Origin: Methanocalculus alkaliphilus
GTDB lineage: Archaea > Halobacteriota > Methanomicrobia > Methanomicrobiales > Methanocorpusculaceae
Length of the DNA: 64,000 nt
NCBI RefSeq assembly: GCF_024170505.1
Contig: NZ_JALJYG010000002.1
Span: forward strand, 124,001 to 188,000
Direction: 5' to 3'
In this document: in pieces, positions 1,839 through 57,529 of the stretch
Layout of the letters: each line of letters opens with the position of its first letter
Numbering within the stretch: the first letter of the stretch is position 1
Made by a program: the position numbers and the translations under genes
The notes under the pieces: model-generated
What the model saw: the letters and a program-made list of their open reading frames with translations, nothing else
Databases searched by the model: none
Told to the model about the DNA's origin: nothing

Positions 1839-2680
1839 TCCCGGACCTCCAGAACCGCCGGTCCTGCTTCTGCAATCCCGGTCGGGTATACCTTCCCAAA
1901 CCCGGAGAGGACCGCCTCTGCATCATCTCCGATGGCAAATACACCCTCGCCGAGCATCGTCATACTTGCCGGAACAGAAGCGTCATCACATGCCTGAAGT
2001 ACCTCCCCGACGACGGGGGTGATCAGCCCGGACGCCTCGGCAAACCGGCGTGAGAGGGAGAGGAAGTCAGGGAGATCGACCGGGCACCTTCCGGGATAGG
2101 CACCGGCGATCTGATTCATCACCCCCGGTGACCCAAGGATACCGTCAGTCGGTATCGGGCCTGCACAGAGGCACCAGATAGTATCATCCAGCCCGACCAT
2201 CCGGTGTACCTCGGTATCGATCCCCGGTCTGGTCCTGCAGACGAGCCCGCCCCCGACCTCGGCGGCCACATCTCCGAGCCCATGGCTGTACTTCACCTCG
2301 ATCTCATGGGCGAGGAGGGCTATCTCATGGCAGCTCATCGAGAGGGCGAAGAGCTCATTGAGACCGGTCAGTGTCGCAAGCAGTGAGGCGGCCGAGAGGC
2401 CGAATCCTGATCCTATCGGGAGTTTTGACTCTGTGGTGATTGATGCAGTAAGATCAAGGCGCTCAAGGGCATATTCGATGGGGGGGGATCCGGTATTCTC
2501 GACACCATCCGAGAGGACAAAGATCTCCGTCTCGACAGCGTCGGCGACCGTGGCAGTGACACCCTGACTGGTGACGATCCCTGCACCGACACTTCCCGTG
2601 TCCCGGAAGGTCTCCCCGGTGATCCTCCGGAAATATCCGGATATATGGCCGGGTGCCCAGACTACGACAGATGGCGGCAT
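1835..2680 (-). CDS. Pantoate kinase (GHMP superfamily)
   Basis: A 281-residue GHMP-family kinase that phosphorylates pantoate to 4-phosphopantoate in the archaeal CoA pathway. The GHMP ATP-binding loop is at residues about 88-99 (PIGSGFGLSAAS). The N-terminus, with APGHISGYF, matches the archaeal pantoate kinase group and not mevalonate or homoserine kinases. The gene lies between coaBC (19-base overlap) and the ligase that uses its product (4-base overlap), which strongly supports the call. Confidence 0.9.
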   Translation of the reverse strand: MPPSVVVWAPGHISGYFRRITGETFRDTGSVGAGIVTSQGVTATVADAVETEIFVLSDGVENTGSPPIEYALERLDLTASITTESKLPIGSGFGLSAASLLATLTGLNELFALSMSCHEIALLAHEIEVKYSHGLGDVAAEVGGGLVCRTRPGIDTEVHRMVGLDDTIWCLCAGPIPTDGILGSPGVMNQIAGAYPGRCPVDLPDFLSLSRRFAEASGLITPVVGEVLQACDDASVPASMTMLGEGVFAIGDDAEAVLSGFGKVYPTGIAEAGPAVLEVRE

Positions 2681-39699: not shown

Positions 39700-40215
39700 A
39701 TGAATCTACGGGGCGTGGCCGGTTTCATCCTTTCGGCAGGGATCCTCTTCCTCTTCTGGATCATCCTCTCAGGCCACCCCGATCCTGTCCATCTCGGCAT
39801 GGGGGTTATCGCATCACTCCTGATTGCATATCTCGCCCCGATCTATGATACAACTGACCCGGACACCACCGGGGCAAAGAGGAGCTTCCTCATCGTCTGC
39901 CTCCTCTCCATCCCGTATCTTATCCGGCTCCAGTCCCAGATCATACGGGCAAACATCGACCTGATCAGGATCATCTTTCATCCGGATCTCCCGATCTCCC
40001 CAACCATCCGGAGATTCGAGACTGATCTCACCTCAGATACCGCAAAAGCAACATTTGGAAACTCCCTGACGCTCACCCCCGGGACCCTGACGATGGATAT
40101 GGCCGGTGATGGCACCTGTTTCATCCATTATCTGACCAGACCGGACAGGACGCAGCAGAAGACAGAGATGCTGCACAGGGCTGTGCAGAACCTCTTTGAA
40201 AGGAGGATTGTGTAA
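39700..40215 (+). CDS. mrpE: Mrp antiporter subunit E
   Basis: A 171-residue MnhE/MrpE-type protein with two N-terminal membrane helices and a cytoplasmic domain that ends with the typical TLTPGTLTMDM and a charged tail. First gene of the operon. MrpE corresponds to MbhA in membrane-bound hydrogenases. The stop TAA shares one base with the mrpF ATG. Confidence 0.9.
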   Translation: MNLRGVAGFILSAGILFLFWIILSGHPDPVHLGMGVIASLLIAYLAPIYDTTDPDTTGAKRSFLIVCLLSIPYLIRLQSQIIRANIDLIRIIFHPDLPISPTIRRFETDLTSDTAKATFGNSLTLTPGTLTMDMAGDGTCFIHYLTRPDRTQQKTEMLHRAVQNLFERRIV

Positions 40216-40499
40216 TGGCAGCGACACCTCTGATCGATATGGCCCTCACAGGAACCGGGGTCATCCTTGGAATAGCAGCCTTCATCTGCCTCTATCGCGT
40301 TGCAAAAGGGCCAACCCTGCCTGATCGGATCATGGCAGTCAACATCATCGGAACGACGACAGCCGTCCTCCTCGTCATCGTCGCTACGCAGATCGGCCAG
40401 CCTTACATCATCGATATTGCACTCACGTATGCGATGCTCGGATTCCTTGTGACCCTCTGTGTATCACGGTACCTGACCACCGGGAGGATATTCACATGA
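40215..40499 (+). CDS. mrpF: Mrp antiporter subunit F
   Basis: A 94-residue three-helix subunit with the family's YRVAKGPTLPDRIMAVNIIGT motif and a conserved Asp in IDIALTYAMLGF. Corresponds to MbhB. Its TGA overlaps the mrpG ATG (ATGA). Confidence 0.92.
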   Translation: MAATPLIDMALTGTGVILGIAAFICLYRVAKGPTLPDRIMAVNIIGTTTAVLLVIVATQIGQPYIIDIALTYAMLGFLVTLCVSRYLTTGRIFT

Positions 40500-40923
40500 A
40501 TACCATCCTGTCGTTTGTTTCAATCGGCCTGCTCCTCGCCGGCGGCTTTTTTTTTTAGCTGGCTCCATCGGGGTGCTGCGGTTTCCGGATTTCTTCTGCC
40601 GGCTTCATGCCGCAACAAAATGCGATACCCTCGGCCAGACCTGCATCCTCCTTGGCATTGCACTCTTTGAAGGGTTCTCCCTTCTCTCACTCAAGGTCCT
40701 TGCAATCAGCTTCTTCTTCCTGATCGCAAGCCCCACTGCCGCACAGGCACTCGCCAAAGGTGCATACATATCCGGCGTGCGTCCTGAGCTGGAGGATGGC
40801 ATTGATGAGTACAGAGAGCCGGCAGGGGACTATATCAGAGAGAAAGAAGAGAATGAGGCTCTCATCAGATCCAAGATGGAGGAGACGGTCAGGAGAGAGG
40901 AAGAGAAGGAGGGGGAGCGATGA
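40496..40923 (+). pseudogene. mrpG: Mrp antiporter subunit G, frameshifted at a T10 run
   Basis: The ATG at 40496 overlaps the mrpF stop, and the first 20 codons encode the correct MrpG N-terminus, but the frame ends at TAG 40556-40558, directly after ten T (40547-40556). The -1 frame then continues perfectly with AGSIGVLRFPDFFCRLHAATK, the MrpG core, to the TGA at 40921-40923, which overlaps the next ATG. One extra T would give a normal 142-residue protein. The rest of the gene is intact and coupling to both neighbours is kept, so polymerase slippage, ribosomal frameshifting or a sequencing error are all more likely than true decay. Confidence 0.85.
40547..40556 (+). repeat. Homopolymer T10 tract inside mrpG
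   Basis: Ten consecutive T, exactly where the two mrpG reading frames meet. Such a run is prone to slippage of DNA or RNA polymerase and to miscounting in sequencing. Confidence 0.95.
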
Positions 40924-41471
40924 TCTGGCTCCTAAACGGCGTCCTCCTTGTCGCCCTGATCATCCTTGCAATCTGGGCTTTGAAGACCCGGGATCTCCTC
41001 GTCTCTGCGATGATACTCTCCGTCTACTCCTTCCTGATGGCGATCATCTATGCCCAGCTGAACTCTCCGGATGTCGCCCTCACTGAGGCGGCGGTTGGTG
41101 CAGGGATCACCACCGTCCTCTTCATCCTTGCCATCCAGAAGACGAGCAGGATGGAGGAGGATTCAGATGATGAGGGGATCCAGAAAGGGCCTCTTGCCAT
41201 TGTACTCGTCATCGGGCTGATCCTTGCCCTCGCTGCCGGGGGGATGCCCTCCTTCGGCAGTCCGGATGCCCCGGCTGCGGTAGTGTCCGGAAACCTGTAT
41301 CTCGAAGAAGCAAAGGACGTCACCGGTGTTGTGAACATCGTCACCGCCATCATCGCCTATTACCGATCATTTGATACCCTCGGTGAGGTGACCGTCGTCT
41401 TTGCCGTCGGGATTGGGATCATCGCACTCTTCCTGAAGAGAAGAGAGGAGGAAGGCGATGACGGGAGGTGA
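40920..41471 (+). CDS. MbhD/MbhE-like fused subunit (DUF4040, MrpA C-terminal homologue)
   Basis: A 183-residue membrane protein. The first half is DUF4040-like: three helices with SVYSFLMAIIYAQLNSPDVALTEAAVGAGITTVLF, as in MbhD and the MrpA C-terminal part. The second half, starting near residue 90, resembles MbhE with NIVTAIIAYYRSFDTLGEVTVVFAVGIG. In classical Mrp systems both parts are fused to the large MrpA; here they stand alone. Confidence 0.82.
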   Translation: MIWLLNGVLLVALIILAIWALKTRDLLVSAMILSVYSFLMAIIYAQLNSPDVALTEAAVGAGITTVLFILAIQKTSRMEEDSDDEGIQKGPLAIVLVIGLILALAAGGMPSFGSPDAPAAVVSGNLYLEEAKDVTGVVNIVTAIIAYYRSFDTLGEVTVVFAVGIGIIALFLKRREEEGDDGR

Positions 41472-41883
41472 TATCATCGTTCGGACGATAGCCCGGCTGA
41501 TGGTCCCGTTTCTTCTCCTCTTTGGGGCATACATCCTCCTGCATGGCCACCTCGGGGCAGGGGGAGGGTTTCAGGCAGGGATCATCTTTACGAGCGCACT
41601 CATCCTTGCCGCGATTGGAAGAAGCCGTATCGAACTGCGGTCCCGGCTCGCCGGGTCAAAACTCTGGATCCTTGGCTCTGCAGGAGCGATCATCTTCGGG
41701 GCGATAGGCTTCCTTGGGATCGTATCAGGAGGATCATTCCTCCAGTACAGCCTCTTTCCGCTCCCCTTCCCTGATGATGCCATCCATGCGATCCTGATCA
41801 CCATCGTTGAGATTGGGATCGGCATCGCCGTCTCCGGGATGATTTGCCTCGTATTCCTCACGATAACCGGGAGGGGAGAATGA
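41458..41883 (+). CDS. mrpB: Mrp antiporter subunit B
   Basis: A 141-residue MnhB-type protein with four helices and the diagnostic YILLHGHLGAGGGFQAGII motif. Corresponds to MbhF. It overlaps the previous gene by 14 bases and the next by 4 (ATGA). Confidence 0.92.
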   Translation: MTGGDIIVRTIARLMVPFLLLFGAYILLHGHLGAGGGFQAGIIFTSALILAAIGRSRIELRSRLAGSKLWILGSAGAIIFGAIGFLGIVSGGSFLQYSLFPLPFPDDAIHAILITIVEIGIGIAVSGMICLVFLTITGRGE

Positions 41884-42257
41884 ACGCCCTCGATCCTGAC
41901 TTTATCCTGGGCCATTACAACTACTGGGTCTCGATCGTCCTGATCATGATCGGGCTGTATACAATGATAGCGAAGAAGAACCTGATCAAGAAGTTCATCG
42001 GGTTAAATATCATCGAGACCGCGATCTTCCTCTTCTATATCTCTCTTGGCGACGTTGATGGGGGGGTCGCCCCTATTCTGCCGAAGGAGGGGGCGGAGAC
42101 CGGGGCGATGCTCTATGCAAACCCACTCCCCTCTGCGATGATGCTCACGGCAATCGTCGTCACCCTCTGTATGACGGCACTTGCACTCAGTTTTGCGGTC
42201 CTCATCTACCGGCGGTACGGAACACTCGATGCAGGGAGGCTGATGGAGGAGCTATGA
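41880..42257 (+). CDS. mrpC: Mrp antiporter subunit C (NuoK-like)
   Basis: A 125-residue NuoK-like subunit with three helices: a helix with IGLYTMIAKKNLIKKFIGLNIIETAI, then LPSAMMLTAIVVTLCMTALAL with the conserved Leu-rich end. Corresponds to MbhG. The ATG at 41880 overlaps the mrpB TGA. Confidence 0.9.
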   Translation: MNALDPDFILGHYNYWVSIVLIMIGLYTMIAKKNLIKKFIGLNIIETAIFLFYISLGDVDGGVAPILPKEGAETGAMLYANPLPSAMMLTAIVVTLCMTALALSFAVLIYRRYGTLDAGRLMEEL

Positions 42258-43738
42258 CCCCGATCACCGACCACCTCCCCATCCTCGTTGTGATGATCCC
42301 GGTGATAGCGGCATATATCACACCGCTCGTCGGCATCCTCCTTGACAGAACAGTGAAAGGGATCGCTGTTGCAGCCGTGTCCGTCAATCTTGCCTGCTCC
42401 CTCCTCCTTACGCACCGTGTTCTCATCCACGGACCGGTATCCTACAATCTCTCAGGTGTTGCCCCGCCGCTGGGAATAGAATTTGTCGCGGATCATCTTG
42501 GTGCAGTCCTCTCTCTTCTCATATCAGCGATCACCCTTATCGCAATCATCTACCTCCAGGCGACGATCCCTGATCTGGGGAGGAAGAAGACGACCATCTT
42601 CTATACGCTCATTCTTCTTGCTGCCGGAGCCACGCAGGGGATCGTCCTGACAAATGATCTCTTCAATCTCTTCGTCCTCATTGAGATTCTGGCAATCGCC
42701 ATGTATGGCCTGGTTGCCATCAGGGCTGATGGAAAGAGCCTCCTTGCCGGATATAAGTATCTCCTGATCGGATCAGCAGGGTCTGCCCTGATCCTCATCG
42801 GGACCGGCTTTCTCTTCATCAGCACCGGCACCCTGAATATGACACTAATGGGAGAGATACTTCCGGATATCATCCATTCATGGACGGTTCTTGCCGGCTT
42901 TGCCCTTCTCATAGCAGGTCTCTCAACAAAGATCGGCCTCTTTCCCCTGCATATCTGGATGCCGGATGCGTATGCTCATGCACCCTCCATCACCCCGGTC
43001 ATCTCGACCCTTGCCCTGAAAGCCGGCCTGGTCGCCCTGATCAGGCTTGTGTACGTCATATTCGGCCCGTCACTATCCGGAGAGGCGGTTCCGCTTCCTT
43101 CCGTCCTTGCGCTCCTCGGTGCAGTTGCTATCGTCATCTGTTCCATCGTTGCGTTGCAGCAGTCGGATATCAGGAGGATGCTTGCATATTCAACGGGTGC
43201 AAATACAGGCTGTATCGTCCTTGGCATCAGCCTTGCGACATCAACCGGGCTTGAGGGTGCAATGCTGCATATGATCACCCATACCGTTGCAAAAGTCTGC
43301 CTCTTCATCGCAGCCGATGCCCTGCTGATTCAGGCGGGGATCAGGATGGTTGAGGATTTCCGGGGACTCGCCGATGAGATGCCATATACCATGGCAGGCT
43401 TCTCCCTTGGTGCCATCTCCATAATCGGGATTCCCTTAAGTGGCGGGTTCATGAGCAAGATATATGTGGCAAATGCAGCTATCGGAGCCGGCCTCCTGAT
43501 CTATGCGGGCGTCATCCTCTTCTGGACCCTCCTGACCGCCCTGTACTTCTTCAGGATATTTCGTCTTGCATACTTTGAGCCATCGCATCGAAAACACCGG
43601 CTGGATGAGGGAAAGTGGCATATGATTCTGATTGTTCTTCTCCTCGGGGCGGCGTCCATCCTCCTTGGATTCTTTGTTGAGATCCCGATGGAGATGATAC
43701 GGCCCGCCGCCGATACACTCCTTGGGGGTGGACTATGA
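42254..43738 (+). CDS. mrpD: Mrp antiporter subunit D (ion-translocating, NuoN/M-like)
   Basis: A 494-residue, fourteen-helix subunit of the proton-conducting antiporter family. Conserved features are the charged FNLFVLIEILAIAMYGLVA helix with its Glu, KYLLIGSAGSALILIG, the broken helix with STKIGLFPLHIWMPDAYAHAPS, and QQSDIRRMLAYST. Corresponds to MbhH. Overlaps at both ends are ATGA. Confidence 0.9.
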   Translation: MTPITDHLPILVVMIPVIAAYITPLVGILLDRTVKGIAVAAVSVNLACSLLLTHRVLIHGPVSYNLSGVAPPLGIEFVADHLGAVLSLLISAITLIAIIYLQATIPDLGRKKTTIFYTLILLAAGATQGIVLTNDLFNLFVLIEILAIAMYGLVAIRADGKSLLAGYKYLLIGSAGSALILIGTGFLFISTGTLNMTLMGEILPDIIHSWTVLAGFALLIAGLSTKIGLFPLHIWMPDAYAHAPSITPVISTLALKAGLVALIRLVYVIFGPSLSGEAVPLPSVLALLGAVAIVICSIVALQQSDIRRMLAYSTGANTGCIVLGISLATSTGLEGAMLHMITHTVAKVCLFIAADALLIQAGIRMVEDFRGLADEMPYTMAGFSLGAISIIGIPLSGGFMSKIYVANAAIGAGLLIYAGVILFWTLLTALYFFRIFRLAYFEPSHRKHRLDEGKWHMILIVLLLGAASILLGFFVEIPMEMIRPAADTLLGGGL

Positions 43739-45228
43739 GCGGGGAGGTGATCACGTCTGGTATCCCGGCAGTAGCACTCTGTATCTCGCTCTCCGCGGCA
43801 ATACTCATCGCAGTATTTGGAAACAGAGTCCGCTATCTGAACGAGGGGGTCACGATGGCGGCGGCTCTCCTCAAGTTTGTGCTGGTTTTTTCGATATACC
43901 AGACCATTATGGATGGGGGGGTACTCCAGTTCACACCGGTCACCCTCCTGCCCGGGGTTCCGTTCTCCCTGACGGTCGATCTCTTTGGAATCTACTTCGC
44001 ATTCCTCTCATCGTTCCTCTGGATTGTCACCTCGATCTTCTCGATCGGGTATATGCGATCCCTCAATGAAGATGCCCAGACACGCTACTACCTCTGCTTT
44101 GCCGTCTGTATCGCATCAACCGTCGGGATCGCCTTCTCCGGGAATCTCCTGACATTCTTCATCTTTTATGAGATCCTCACCTTTGCCACATACCCGCTCG
44201 TTGTTCACAATCAGACGAAGGAGGCGATGGACGCCGGGAAGAAGTACCTTGCCTACCTGATGACCGGGGGGATCGTCCTCCTCTTTGCAATTGTTCTCAC
44301 GTACACGATGACGGGGACCCTTGACTTTGCCGAGGGGGGGATACTCAACGGAACCGGGAGTACAGATGTCCTCCGGCTTCTCTGCCTCCTCTTCATCGCC
44401 GGAGTCGGTGTTAAGACCGCAATCATGCCCCTTCATGGATGGCTGCCTGCTGCGATGGTCGCACCGACCCCGGTGAGCGCCCTGCTGCATGCAGTGGCAG
44501 TCGTCAAGGCAGGCGCCTTCGGCCTCCTGCGGATCATCTTCTACATCTTTGGGATGGAACTCTTCACCGAAATTGGCGCCGCACCGTTCCTTGCCGCCTT
44601 TGCCGGGTTGACGATCATCACCGCCTCATTCATCGCACTTGCACAGGATAACCTGAAGATGAGGCTTGCCTACTCCACGATCAGCCAGCTCTCCTATATC
44701 GTCCTCGGGGTCGCCCTTCTTGCACCTGCGGCCCTCGAGGGGGGAATTGCCCATATGATGCATCAGGCCTTCATGAAGATCACGCTCTTCTTCTGTGCGG
44801 GAGCCATCTATGTCACAACCGGGAAGACCCGCCTCTCCGAGATGCATGGGATGGCCGATGAGATGCCCTATACCTGGGCTGCTTTTACCATCGGAGGGCT
44901 TGGCCTCATCGGCATACCCCTGACCGCAGGGTTCATCACAAAATGGTTCATGATAACCGGTGCCCTTGATGCCGGAGCATCGATCTATGTCCTCCTCCTT
45001 CTCATCAGTGCCCTCCTCAATGCAGCCTACTTTCTGCCCCCGATCTACCATGCCTATTTCTCAGAACCATCAGAGACCGGCGACTTTGAGGAGCAGACGA
45101 GCTGGCTCATCAAGTTTCCCCTGATCCTCACCGCTGTGATGGTCATCCTCTTTGGAATAATTCCAAATGCGCCGTACTTCCCTCTGGAGGTGGCAACGGC
45201 AATCGTGAGGAGTATCACCGGGTTCTGA
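43735..45228 (+). CDS. Second antiporter-like membrane subunit (NuoM/NuoL-like)
   Basis: A 497-residue polytopic protein of the same antiporter family as MrpD, with FFIFYEILTFATYPLVVH, KKYLAYLMTGG, GVGVKTAIMPLHGWLPAAMVAPTPVSALLHA and QDNLKMRLAYSTISQLSYI. The His and Lys spacing after VKTAIMPLHGWLP is close to MrpA/NuoL N-terminal domains. It may supply the MrpA function missing as a single protein. Last gene on the plus strand. Confidence 0.85.
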   Translation: MSGEVITSGIPAVALCISLSAAILIAVFGNRVRYLNEGVTMAAALLKFVLVFSIYQTIMDGGVLQFTPVTLLPGVPFSLTVDLFGIYFAFLSSFLWIVTSIFSIGYMRSLNEDAQTRYYLCFAVCIASTVGIAFSGNLLTFFIFYEILTFATYPLVVHNQTKEAMDAGKKYLAYLMTGGIVLLFAIVLTYTMTGTLDFAEGGILNGTGSTDVLRLLCLLFIAGVGVKTAIMPLHGWLPAAMVAPTPVSALLHAVAVVKAGAFGLLRIIFYIFGMELFTEIGAAPFLAAFAGLTIITASFIALAQDNLKMRLAYSTISQLSYIVLGVALLAPAALEGGIAHMMHQAFMKITLFFCAGAIYVTTGKTRLSEMHGMADEMPYTWAAFTIGGLGLIGIPLTAGFITKWFMITGALDAGASIYVLLLLISALLNAAYFLPPIYHAYFSEPSETGDFEEQTSWLIKFPLILTAVMVILFGIIPNAPYFPLEVATAIVRSITGF

Positions 45229-45233
45229 TACTA

Positions 45234-47192
45234 TCATCCGATGACCGGGGCGAGAATAATAATGATCAGGTAGATCCCAAGGACCAGTGTGATGAGGAGG
45301 ATGCCGGTCCCGAATGTAGAGAGATTAAGCAGGGTTCGCCGGTGCCTGCGCGAAAAGATGAGCCAGCGCTCCTGAAAATGCTCATCTGCGGTCCGGGTCA
45401 TCTCCTGTATTCCGGAGAGGAGATCGACTCCGACAAATCGCCCGGTCGATTGAAATGCCCCGGTAACCCGGTAATACCAGGCATCAGGGGAGATGAGGGA
45501 GGGGACCTTCTTCTCCCAATGGAACCATCCCCAGAAGACATAGGCGATGAAGAGGAGGACCCCGATACCTATCTCAAGGATCGCATAGCCGATATTGCCG
45601 GCAGAATAGATGCCTGCCCCTGCGTACCCGGCATATCCGGCAATATATGCGATTCCTGACTCGGAGAACGGGAAGACCATTGCTGCTGGCAGAATAAAGA
45701 AGATGGCAAGACCCGGGAGGATTCCAAGGAGTATGATCGCAACCGAGAGGGAGGCCATCGCTGCCTTCATCGGGAGGGGTGTTCTATCAAGCGGCAGTCT
45801 CTGAAGCTTTGACTCGCCAAAGAAGGTGAAGAGGAGGAGCTTTCCCGTGGAGGCGACGGTTCCTCCACAGACGATGAAGAAGATCGCCTCTGCAGGAAGG
45901 AGGGTCCACCCGCCAACAGCCTGTGCATCGATGAGGGCATGATGAATGAATGCCTTGCTGACGAACCCGTTGAACCCTGGTACGCCCGATATTGCACAGA
46001 CACCGATTACCATTGCCAGGGCAGTAAACGGCATGGAGCGCCAGAGGCCTCCGATTTTATACATATTCAGCTCATCGGTTGCAAGAAAGACGGCACCTAC
46101 TGCGAGGAAGAGGGAGGCCTTGAAGAGGGCATGGTTGATGAGATGATAGAGCCCCCCGGCAAAGCCGCTTGATCCCCCATCCCCAAGATACACCACACAG
46201 GAGATGCCAAGGAGGATGAACCCCATCTGGCTGATACTGTGATACGCAAGCATCCTCTTTGAGTTGGTCTGCATCAGGGCCAGGAAGACGGCAACGATCA
46301 TTGTAATCAGAGAGATCCATATCAGGACGAGCCCGGCGGGAGAGCCGGAAGAGGAGAGAGGGCCTGAGATGATGGAGGGGAAGAGGATGAAGAGGCAGAC
46401 GATGAAGATTCCGTAGGCGCCAACCTTGATGATCAGTCCGGAGAGTATAGCAGAAGCGGGTGTCGGGGCGGAGCTGTGGGCATCAGGAAGCCAGATATGA
46501 ACGGGATACATCCCGGCCTTCACACCGAAGCCGAGGATCATCAGTCCGGCAATGAGGAGGATTTGGGAGCCGGTCAGGCCTGACCCGGCTGCAAGGGGGG
46601 CCACATCAATCGATCCTGTACCTGCAAAGAGGAGGGCGGCACCCGCAAGAATGAGGAAAGCACCGGATAATCCAAGGAAGAGATACTTCTTTGCAGCAGC
46701 AACCGCATCATCTGTCTGATAATGGATGATCAGCACAAATGCCGAGAGGGTCAGCAACTCAAAGAAGAGATACAGTGTGATGTAGTCGCCTGAGATGAGT
46801 ACACCGAGATCCGCAAAGAGTGAGAAGAGCCAGAAGGTATAGAAGCGGTTCGTCCTCTCCTTCTCGCCAAGATATCCTGTGGCATAGACGGTGCCGAGCA
46901 TCCAGACAAATGCAGTGATCAGGATGATGGCATACGAGAAGGGATTCATCTGGATGATCGGGGTATAAAAGAGATACTCACTCTCAATGGCAATCCGGAA
47001 GCTGAGATCAGAAGAGAGGAAGGGGATGCCAAGGCCGGCGATCAGAAGGACCAGGGCAGGGACAGAGACCGCAATCAGGTTGCGGAGAGGGGCGGAGTAT
47101 CGACCTGCGAGGTAACAGAGGAGAGAGCCGATGAACGGAACCGCAAGTAGAGTAAGAACCGCATACTCTGGCTGGAATCCGATGATCTCCAT
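45234..47192 (-). CDS. Third antiporter-like membrane subunit (NuoL-like), opposite strand
   Basis: A roughly 652-residue, about sixteen-helix protein of the proton-conducting transporter family: LYLFFELLTLSAFVLIIHYQTDDAV, KKYLFLGLSGAFLILAG, GFGVKAGMYPVHIWLPDAHSSAPTPASAIL and QTNSKRMLAYHSISQMGFIL. The extra C-terminal ~120 residues carry a late helix pair. It converges on the mrp operon with a 5-base gap, so it has its own promoter and may be expressed separately. Start ATG at 47192. Confidence 0.85.
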   Translation of the reverse strand: MEIIGFQPEYAVLTLLAVPFIGSLLCYLAGRYSAPLRNLIAVSVPALVLLIAGLGIPFLSSDLSFRIAIESEYLFYTPIIQMNPFSYAIILITAFVWMLGTVYATGYLGEKERTNRFYTFWLFSLFADLGVLISGDYITLYLFFELLTLSAFVLIIHYQTDDAVAAAKKYLFLGLSGAFLILAGAALLFAGTGSIDVAPLAAGSGLTGSQILLIAGLMILGFGVKAGMYPVHIWLPDAHSSAPTPASAILSGLIIKVGAYGIFIVCLFILFPSIISGPLSSSGSPAGLVLIWISLITMIVAVFLALMQTNSKRMLAYHSISQMGFILLGISCVVYLGDGGSSGFAGGLYHLINHALFKASLFLAVGAVFLATDELNMYKIGGLWRSMPFTALAMVIGVCAISGVPGFNGFVSKAFIHHALIDAQAVGGWTLLPAEAIFFIVCGGTVASTGKLLLFTFFGESKLQRLPLDRTPLPMKAAMASLSVAIILLGILPGLAIFFILPAAMVFPFSESGIAYIAGYAGYAGAGIYSAGNIGYAILEIGIGVLLFIAYVFWGWFHWEKKVPSLISPDAWYYRVTGAFQSTGRFVGVDLLSGIQEMTRTADEHFQERWLIFSRRHRRTLLNLSTFGTGILLITLVLGIYLIIIILAPVIG

Positions 47193-47294
47193 TGGCAATA
47201 TGGTTATTCTGCCTTGTGATAGATAAGTATACTGAAGGATCGATGTCGTTTCCCAATATCACTGCATTTTCAGGATAATTTCGTAACCCTTATT

Positions 47295-56770: not shown

Positions 56771-57529
56771 TTATTCTTTCTGTCCTGATGAGAAGACCGG
56801 GGAGCGATAGACGATACCGGTCGCATTATCCCGTGTCACTGCGAGGACTCGATTCATGAGCCGTCTGAGGATCCCGGCCGGATCATCCCTGAGCGATTCA
56901 CAGCTGAGGATCTGCTCATCAAGGTGTTCATAAAAACCATCCGATGCAAGGAGGAGAACATCACCTGGATGAAGGCTGATGCTCTTCATCGAAACGGTGA
57001 AGTCCCCACCAATACTCCGCGTGATATATGATCGCAGCGGGTGATGGATCACTTCGCTTGAGTCGAGGAGGCCACGCTGCACCATCTCGGCGACAAGCGA
57101 GTGGTCACGGGTGACGGAGACGACACGGCCGGAGAGATGGTATGCACGGGAATCTCCGGTATGTGCAATGATAGCTTTATTTCTCCTGATGAAGGCGGCG
57201 ACGAGCGTCGTCCCCATCCCTTTTGCATTACCGGTCGCCGCAGTCTTGACGGCTCTATCTGCCGCTATAAATCCTTCTTCAAGTATACGGTGAAATTCCT
57301 CATTTTTGAGACCCCCTGTGTATGCCTCAGAAAAATGGTCACGCAGTGCCGTGATGGCTATTGATGAGGCCCGATCACCTGCAACCTGCCCACCGATACC
57401 ATCTGCAACCGCAATAAGATAGCCATCCGGAAGAGGGAGGATCGTAAAAGAGTCCTCGTTTGCCGGCCTCCCCCCCCGACATGTGAGACCTGCTATCTCA
57501 CTCCCGATCGTCATCATCCGCCCGATCAT
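56771..57529 (-). CDS. PP2C-family Ser/Thr protein phosphatase
   Basis: A roughly 252-residue PPM phosphatase. The metal and phosphate residues are in RPANEDSF near residue 20, VADGIGGQVAGDRAS, AHTGDSRAYHL, LLASDGFYEHL and the late DNATGIV. PP2C enzymes are uncommon in methanogens and usually act with a Hanks-type kinase; no kinase gene is in this window. The N-terminus is uncertain: ATG at 57529 or 57517, while the first possible start (57541) is TTG. Confidence 0.85.
   Translation of the reverse strand: MIGRMMTIGSEIAGLTCRGGRPANEDSFTILPLPDGYLIAVADGIGGQVAGDRASSIAITALRDHFSEAYTGGLKNEEFHRILEEGFIAADRAVKTAATGNAKGMGTTLVAAFIRRNKAIIAHTGDSRAYHLSGRVVSVTRDHSLVAEMVQRGLLDSSEVIHHPLRSYITRSIGGDFTVSMKSISLHPGDVLLLASDGFYEHLDEQILSCESLRDDPAGILRRLMNRVLAVTRDNATGIVYRSPVFSSGQKE

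Follow-up and report, generated by a model that had tools for sequence, protein, structure and literature searches.

In the methanogen Methanocalculus alkaliphilus, mrpG, a small gene belonging to a sodium/proton pump, is one gene carried in two reading frames, joined at an invariant run of ten T, with both parts under selection and no other evident start for the second part. Comparative sequence data indicate that it is very probably a conserved recoded gene, with recoding of one kind or another joining the two frames. The apparent break is almost certainly a retained feature that is read through by slipping, neither an error nor a dead gene, because every related genome that carries the gene has the same ten T. 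Transcriptional slippage on the U10 tract is the probable source of full-length MrpG, and we favor it over −1 ribosomal frameshifting.

The window analyzed here, a stretch of 64,000 nucleotides, is drawn from the M. alkaliphilus draft genome (2.09 Mb in 37 contigs, with 99.9% completeness). In window coordinates, the features of the locus are as follows.

39700..40215, + strand: mrpE, intact (PF01899).
40215..40499, + strand: mrpF, intact, its stop overlapping the mrpG ATG (PF04066).
40496..40558, + strand: first frame of mrpG (frame 0), 20 codons and then TAG, the N-terminal part of TM1 (sequence; purifying selection only in frame 0).
40547..40556, + strand: T10, the putative recoding site, with U_UUU_UUU directly before UAG and ten T in all five orthologs (sequence and ortholog alignment).
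40549..40923, + strand: second frame of mrpG (−1), the rest of MrpG (PF03334, E 4.5e-24; selection in the −1 frame).
40920..41471, + strand: MbhD/MbhE-like subunit (MrpA C-terminal type), intact, its ATG overlapping the 3′ end of mrpG in the second frame (PF13244, PF20501).
41458..41883, + strand: mrpB (MnhB), intact (PF04039).
41844..42257, + strand: mrpC (NuoK-like), intact (PF00420).
42254..43738, + strand: mrpD-type antiporter subunit, intact (PF00361).
43735..45228, + strand: second MrpD/MrpA-type antiporter subunit, intact (PF00361).
45234..47198, − strand: third antiporter-type subunit, 654 aa, convergent with the mrp operon (PF00361).

The last of these, the 654-aa subunit, lies on the opposite strand and outside the mrp operon proper.

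The mrpG ATG at 40496 overlaps the mrpF stop (ATGA), and frame 0 translates as MNTILSFVSIGLLLAGGFFF* (20 residues), the tract occupying 40547-40556 and the in-frame TAG (40556-40558) standing directly at its end. From 40549 the −1 frame reads FFLAGSIGVLRFPDFFCRLHAATK..., and its product also reads FFLAGSIGVLRFPDFFCRLHAATKCDTLGQ..., with a stop at 40921-40923 that overlaps the next ATG at 40920. This second frame alone matches the Pfam family PhaG_MnhG_YufB (PF03334) at 4.5e-24, with 84.9 bits compared with a gathering score of 23.4, and covers model positions 8-80, only the first seven positions being missing. When read through, the predicted MrpG aligns from TM1 on with the MrpG chains 6u8y_C and 7qru_G and is free of gaps at the junction.

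The initial annotation had described mrpG as split by a −1 frameshift at ten T, with its ATG overlapping the mrpF stop and its second-frame end overlapping the next ATG; when the sequence was rechecked at 40496-40923, the split was borne out and both overlaps were present. The Pfam profile matches of the neighboring genes likewise agree with its description of the other subunits as intact. The frame split to which it applied the word “broken” is real, but the wording is misleading, the split state being conserved in five of five orthologs. Its further expectation, that a true null would probably disable the whole Mrp complex with every other subunit intact, calls for a small qualification. The M. 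alkaliphilus genome holds three MnhG-type genes including the split mrpG, and with two further copies the loss of this one need not abolish all Mrp-type function. Mrp subunits are generally all required, a reported exception being MrpA alone in Methanosarcina acetivorans (PMC5703873).

A survey of eight Methanocalculus genomes identified the split mrpG ortholog in five, spanning isolate and metagenomic assemblies, while only paralogs of about 44% identity were found in the other three. The nearest match at the locus is Methanocalculus chunghsingensis, with 90% DNA identity, and pairwise nucleotide identity over the mrpG stretch in the five genomes ranges from 69 to 92%. In all five ortholog-bearing genomes, exactly T10 followed by AG lies 51 nt downstream of an ATG overlapping the stop of mrpF; the frame offset is the same in each, and the −1 continuation ends at or beside the ATG of the next gene. 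No invariant block in the five-genome alignment is longer than the 14 nt of GC-T10-AG. The three Phe codons of the tract are TTT and its Leu codon is TTA throughout, and in the window operon and its neighbors TTT makes up 82 of 213 Phe codons (38%) and TTA 6 of 593 Leu codons (1%). Among conserved codons, the wobble position is invariant in 10 of 50 cases for mrpF and in 16 of 55 for the second frame of mrpG. Compared with this last value, the segment at window positions 40590-40630, some 36-72 nt past T10, has invariant wobble at 7 of 11 sites, which may reflect either chance or an overlapping signal.

The initial annotation had suggested comparing the tract in relatives and had associated a plain pseudogene with “decayed homologues”; the comparison, run here at the species level, gives the opposite picture, with T10 kept. 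Outgroup sequences (Methanomicrobiaceae UBA207 together with Methanocellales and Methanosarcinales MAGs) lack the run and have SFFFI in a single frame, written as TCTTTCTTCTTTATT or similarly. Since the same residues are encoded in frame in the outgroups, the +1 product matches the ancestral length. A pattern search of 232 Methanomicrobiales and 393 phylum genomes, which required 7-8 T plus the motif GSIG..R.PD, returned no T10-type split outside the genus, and the phage collection that was searched gave no match.

Selection on the two parts of the gene follows the frame change. In the five-genome comparison, pN/pS before the tract is 0.20-0.61 in frame 0, with the other frames mostly near or above 1, and after the tract it is 0.05-0.19 in the −1 frame, with the other two frames at about 0.9-1.8 or far above. 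Both mrpG frames are thus under purifying selection, frame 0 only before the tract and the −1 frame only after it. No ATG, GTG or TTG that could start the second frame is present upstream of the tract in any of the five genomes, and no downstream start is conserved, two of the five having none. Given this split selection and the lack of a usable start, the second part can only arise as a continuation of the first. Reinitiation was rejected as well: the only nearby candidate, the GTG at 40573, corresponds to GTT in M. chunghsingensis and to ATC in the three remaining genomes.

Long A/T runs are rare in this genome, which together with the recurrence of T10 and its offset in five of five orthologs speaks against chance. 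Only five places in the 2.09 Mb have runs of at least ten. One is the mrpG T10; none of the remaining four falls within a called gene, and several are located where genes end, in the manner of archaeal terminators. Among the matches listed (18 A/T runs of at least nine), the mrpG tract is the only one internal to a gene as called by our simple longest-frame heuristic, and one A9 overlaps a start codon. A/T runs of ten at loci L046 and L041 of the same genome (around position 1500 in each) lie between convergent genes and look like shared bidirectional terminator-like sites. Shorter runs were also noted: a T8 around position 1500 of locus L102 (contig C1:288935-288942) lies inside a called 516-aa frame, and G8 and C8 at window positions 2480-2487 and 57470-57477 fall within called reading frames and are possible slippery tracts.

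The initial annotation had named transcriptional slippage and ribosomal frameshifting among its explanations, and as a class these are strongly supported by the five-genome conservation and selection. Which of the two is at work cannot be read from conservation, because Phe-Phe-Phe-Leu together with U_UUU_UUU would alone force ten T. A nine-base run has been reported as the threshold for transcriptional slippage in many bacteria (PMC1088944), and single-base insertions climb exponentially with A/T run length (PMC5574713); the T10, at the frame junction, is longer than this threshold of about nine A/T bases. Our model is that RNA polymerase would slip while copying T10, generating mRNAs with U9, U10, U11 and so on. 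The U11 mRNA, with one extra U (...GG-FFF-L-AGSIG...), would give full-length MrpG of about 142 aa with the junction peptide ...GGFFFLAGSIGVLR, and the unslipped U10 mRNA would give a 20-residue stub ending at TAG. Because it is the mrpG end that overlaps the next ATG, ribosomes stopping at this TAG could not pass on to the downstream genes. A share of the frameshift may also be ribosomal.

With −1 ribosomal frameshifting of the programmed type, the two Phe-tRNAs reading U_UUU_UUU would step back by one at UAG, resulting in the same protein as the U11 mRNA, with FFF-L and the outgroup length. We consider this mechanism possible, if on the less probable side. The heptamer immediately precedes UAG, correctly phased, in five of five genomes, and precedents exist: −1 frameshifting has been proven on A_AAA_AAT in one archaeal gene, fucA1 of S. 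solfataricus (PMC8211752), and has been proposed for chlD of Methanococcus and Methanocaldococcus (PMC5009743, PMC3711429). However, the features expected to stimulate such a step were not apparent. Downstream folding, which covered pseudoknot-free structures, gave z values scattered around 0, between −1.95 and +1.5, with the five genomes disagreeing, and the RNAalifold covariation term was a penalty. The only candidate stem, of 7 bp right after the tract, begins 0-1 nt past the site and not at the usual 5-9, has two pairs broken in one genome (G002) and was no better than shuffles, leading us to reject it. By eye, the 30 nt upstream of the tract contain no SD-like stimulator in the five genomes. 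We favor transcriptional slippage on account of the sufficient length of the tract and the lack of a detectable −1 stimulator.

It is also conceivable, although unlikely, that T10 is kept mainly as an internal U-tract terminator or attenuator ahead of the antiporter subunits, with recoding as a tolerated side effect; the likelihood we give to this overlaps with those given to slippage and to ribosomal frameshifting. The other A/T runs of at least ten in the genome are intergenic, several of them where genes end, and in Methanococcus maripaludis the stoichiometry of operons for protein complexes is tuned by internal poly-U terminators (PMC10450193). These, however, were mapped between genes and not within one, and an attenuator would leave the out-of-frame number of ten unexplained, as T11 or T12 would terminate equally.

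The genome data exclude the ordinary explanations as far as such data can, the five-genome comparison leading to the rejection of sequencing error, phase variation and a pseudogene alike. A sequencing or assembly error concealing a true T11, as raised in the initial annotation, is very unlikely: homopolymers are error-prone on some platforms, but ten T appear in each of five separate assemblies, from isolates and metagenomes alike. Moreover, the M. alkaliphilus assembly itself writes an A11 elsewhere, so its runs are not limited to ten by assembly. Phase variation of an ion pump by replication slippage, from the same source, is marginally less probable again and finds no support; a long homopolymer does occupy an ON/OFF position, but its length is constant and the out-of-frame state is found in all five genomes. 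A plain pseudogene or recent frameshift mutation is the least probable of all, for while MrpG is not encoded in one frame and the genome has two other MnhG-type genes, the same split recurs in five species, where both parts are under strong purifying selection and no further lesion is present.

The length of the tract itself invites explanation. In the five genomes the tract is never at a frame-restoring length, although a one-base change in a mutable tract would suffice, and the persistence of an out-of-frame length in all lineages, at a hot spot for replication slippage, would imply that this length is itself selected. U10 further belongs to a class of termination signal for archaeal RNA polymerase, U-tracts being known to drive transcription termination in archaea (PMC8716108). 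The combination of uncoupling at TAG with such a termination signal makes it likely that the tract sets the dose of MrpG, and perhaps also that of the downstream antiporter subunits. It is plausible that dose control is the reason for the fixed out-of-frame length, and the tract may damp the genes that follow, since U tracts are archaeal terminators. More tentatively, a single U10 tract could serve as both a fixed slippage site and a partial terminator, and so govern the proportion of early to late subunits in an Mrp-type ion pump.

Several known systems share elements of this arrangement. As in the bacterial slippage genes (Thermus dnaX with A9, Shigella mxiE and spa13, and IS elements with 9A/9T), an A/T run of at least nine lies in coding sequence; in those genes a fraction of the mRNA regains the frame through one added base, a step that is proposed for mrpG. 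Unlike them, mrpG would depend on an archaeal RNA polymerase, and combines an ion-pump core subunit, a long overlapping operon and a 20-residue stub. S. solfataricus fucA1 is likewise archaeal, with two frames in a −1 relation at a homopolymeric site. However, fucA1 has A_AAA_AAT, a proposed stem-loop and rare codons, whereas no stem-loop is supported at the mrpG T10; fucA1 is also split only in strains P2 and 98/2 and full-length in other Sulfolobales (PMC8211752), whereas T10 is present in every mrpG ortholog found. The magnesium chelatase gene chlD of Methanococcus and Methanocaldococcus resembles mrpG in having a conserved −1 transition at a homopolymer in methanogens, although its site is A_AAA_AAR and its gene and product logic differ. 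Finally, the poly-U internal operon terminators (ioTTS) of M. maripaludis also place a U tract in a protein-complex operon, but they are intergenic, whereas T10 lies inside the reading frame and breaks it.

A 2021 review lists a single cellular gene of archaea with a demonstrated −1 frameshift (PMC8211752), and the literature searched yielded no report of an archaeal cellular gene that uses transcriptional slippage. The mrpG example is a warning that recoded genes of this type are entered in annotations as pseudogenes, and that genuine biology can be lost when homopolymer frameshifts in archaeal assemblies are “corrected”. Looking forward, a case spanning five species in a culturable genus offers a clean test of whether it is the archaeal RNA polymerase or the ribosome that slips.
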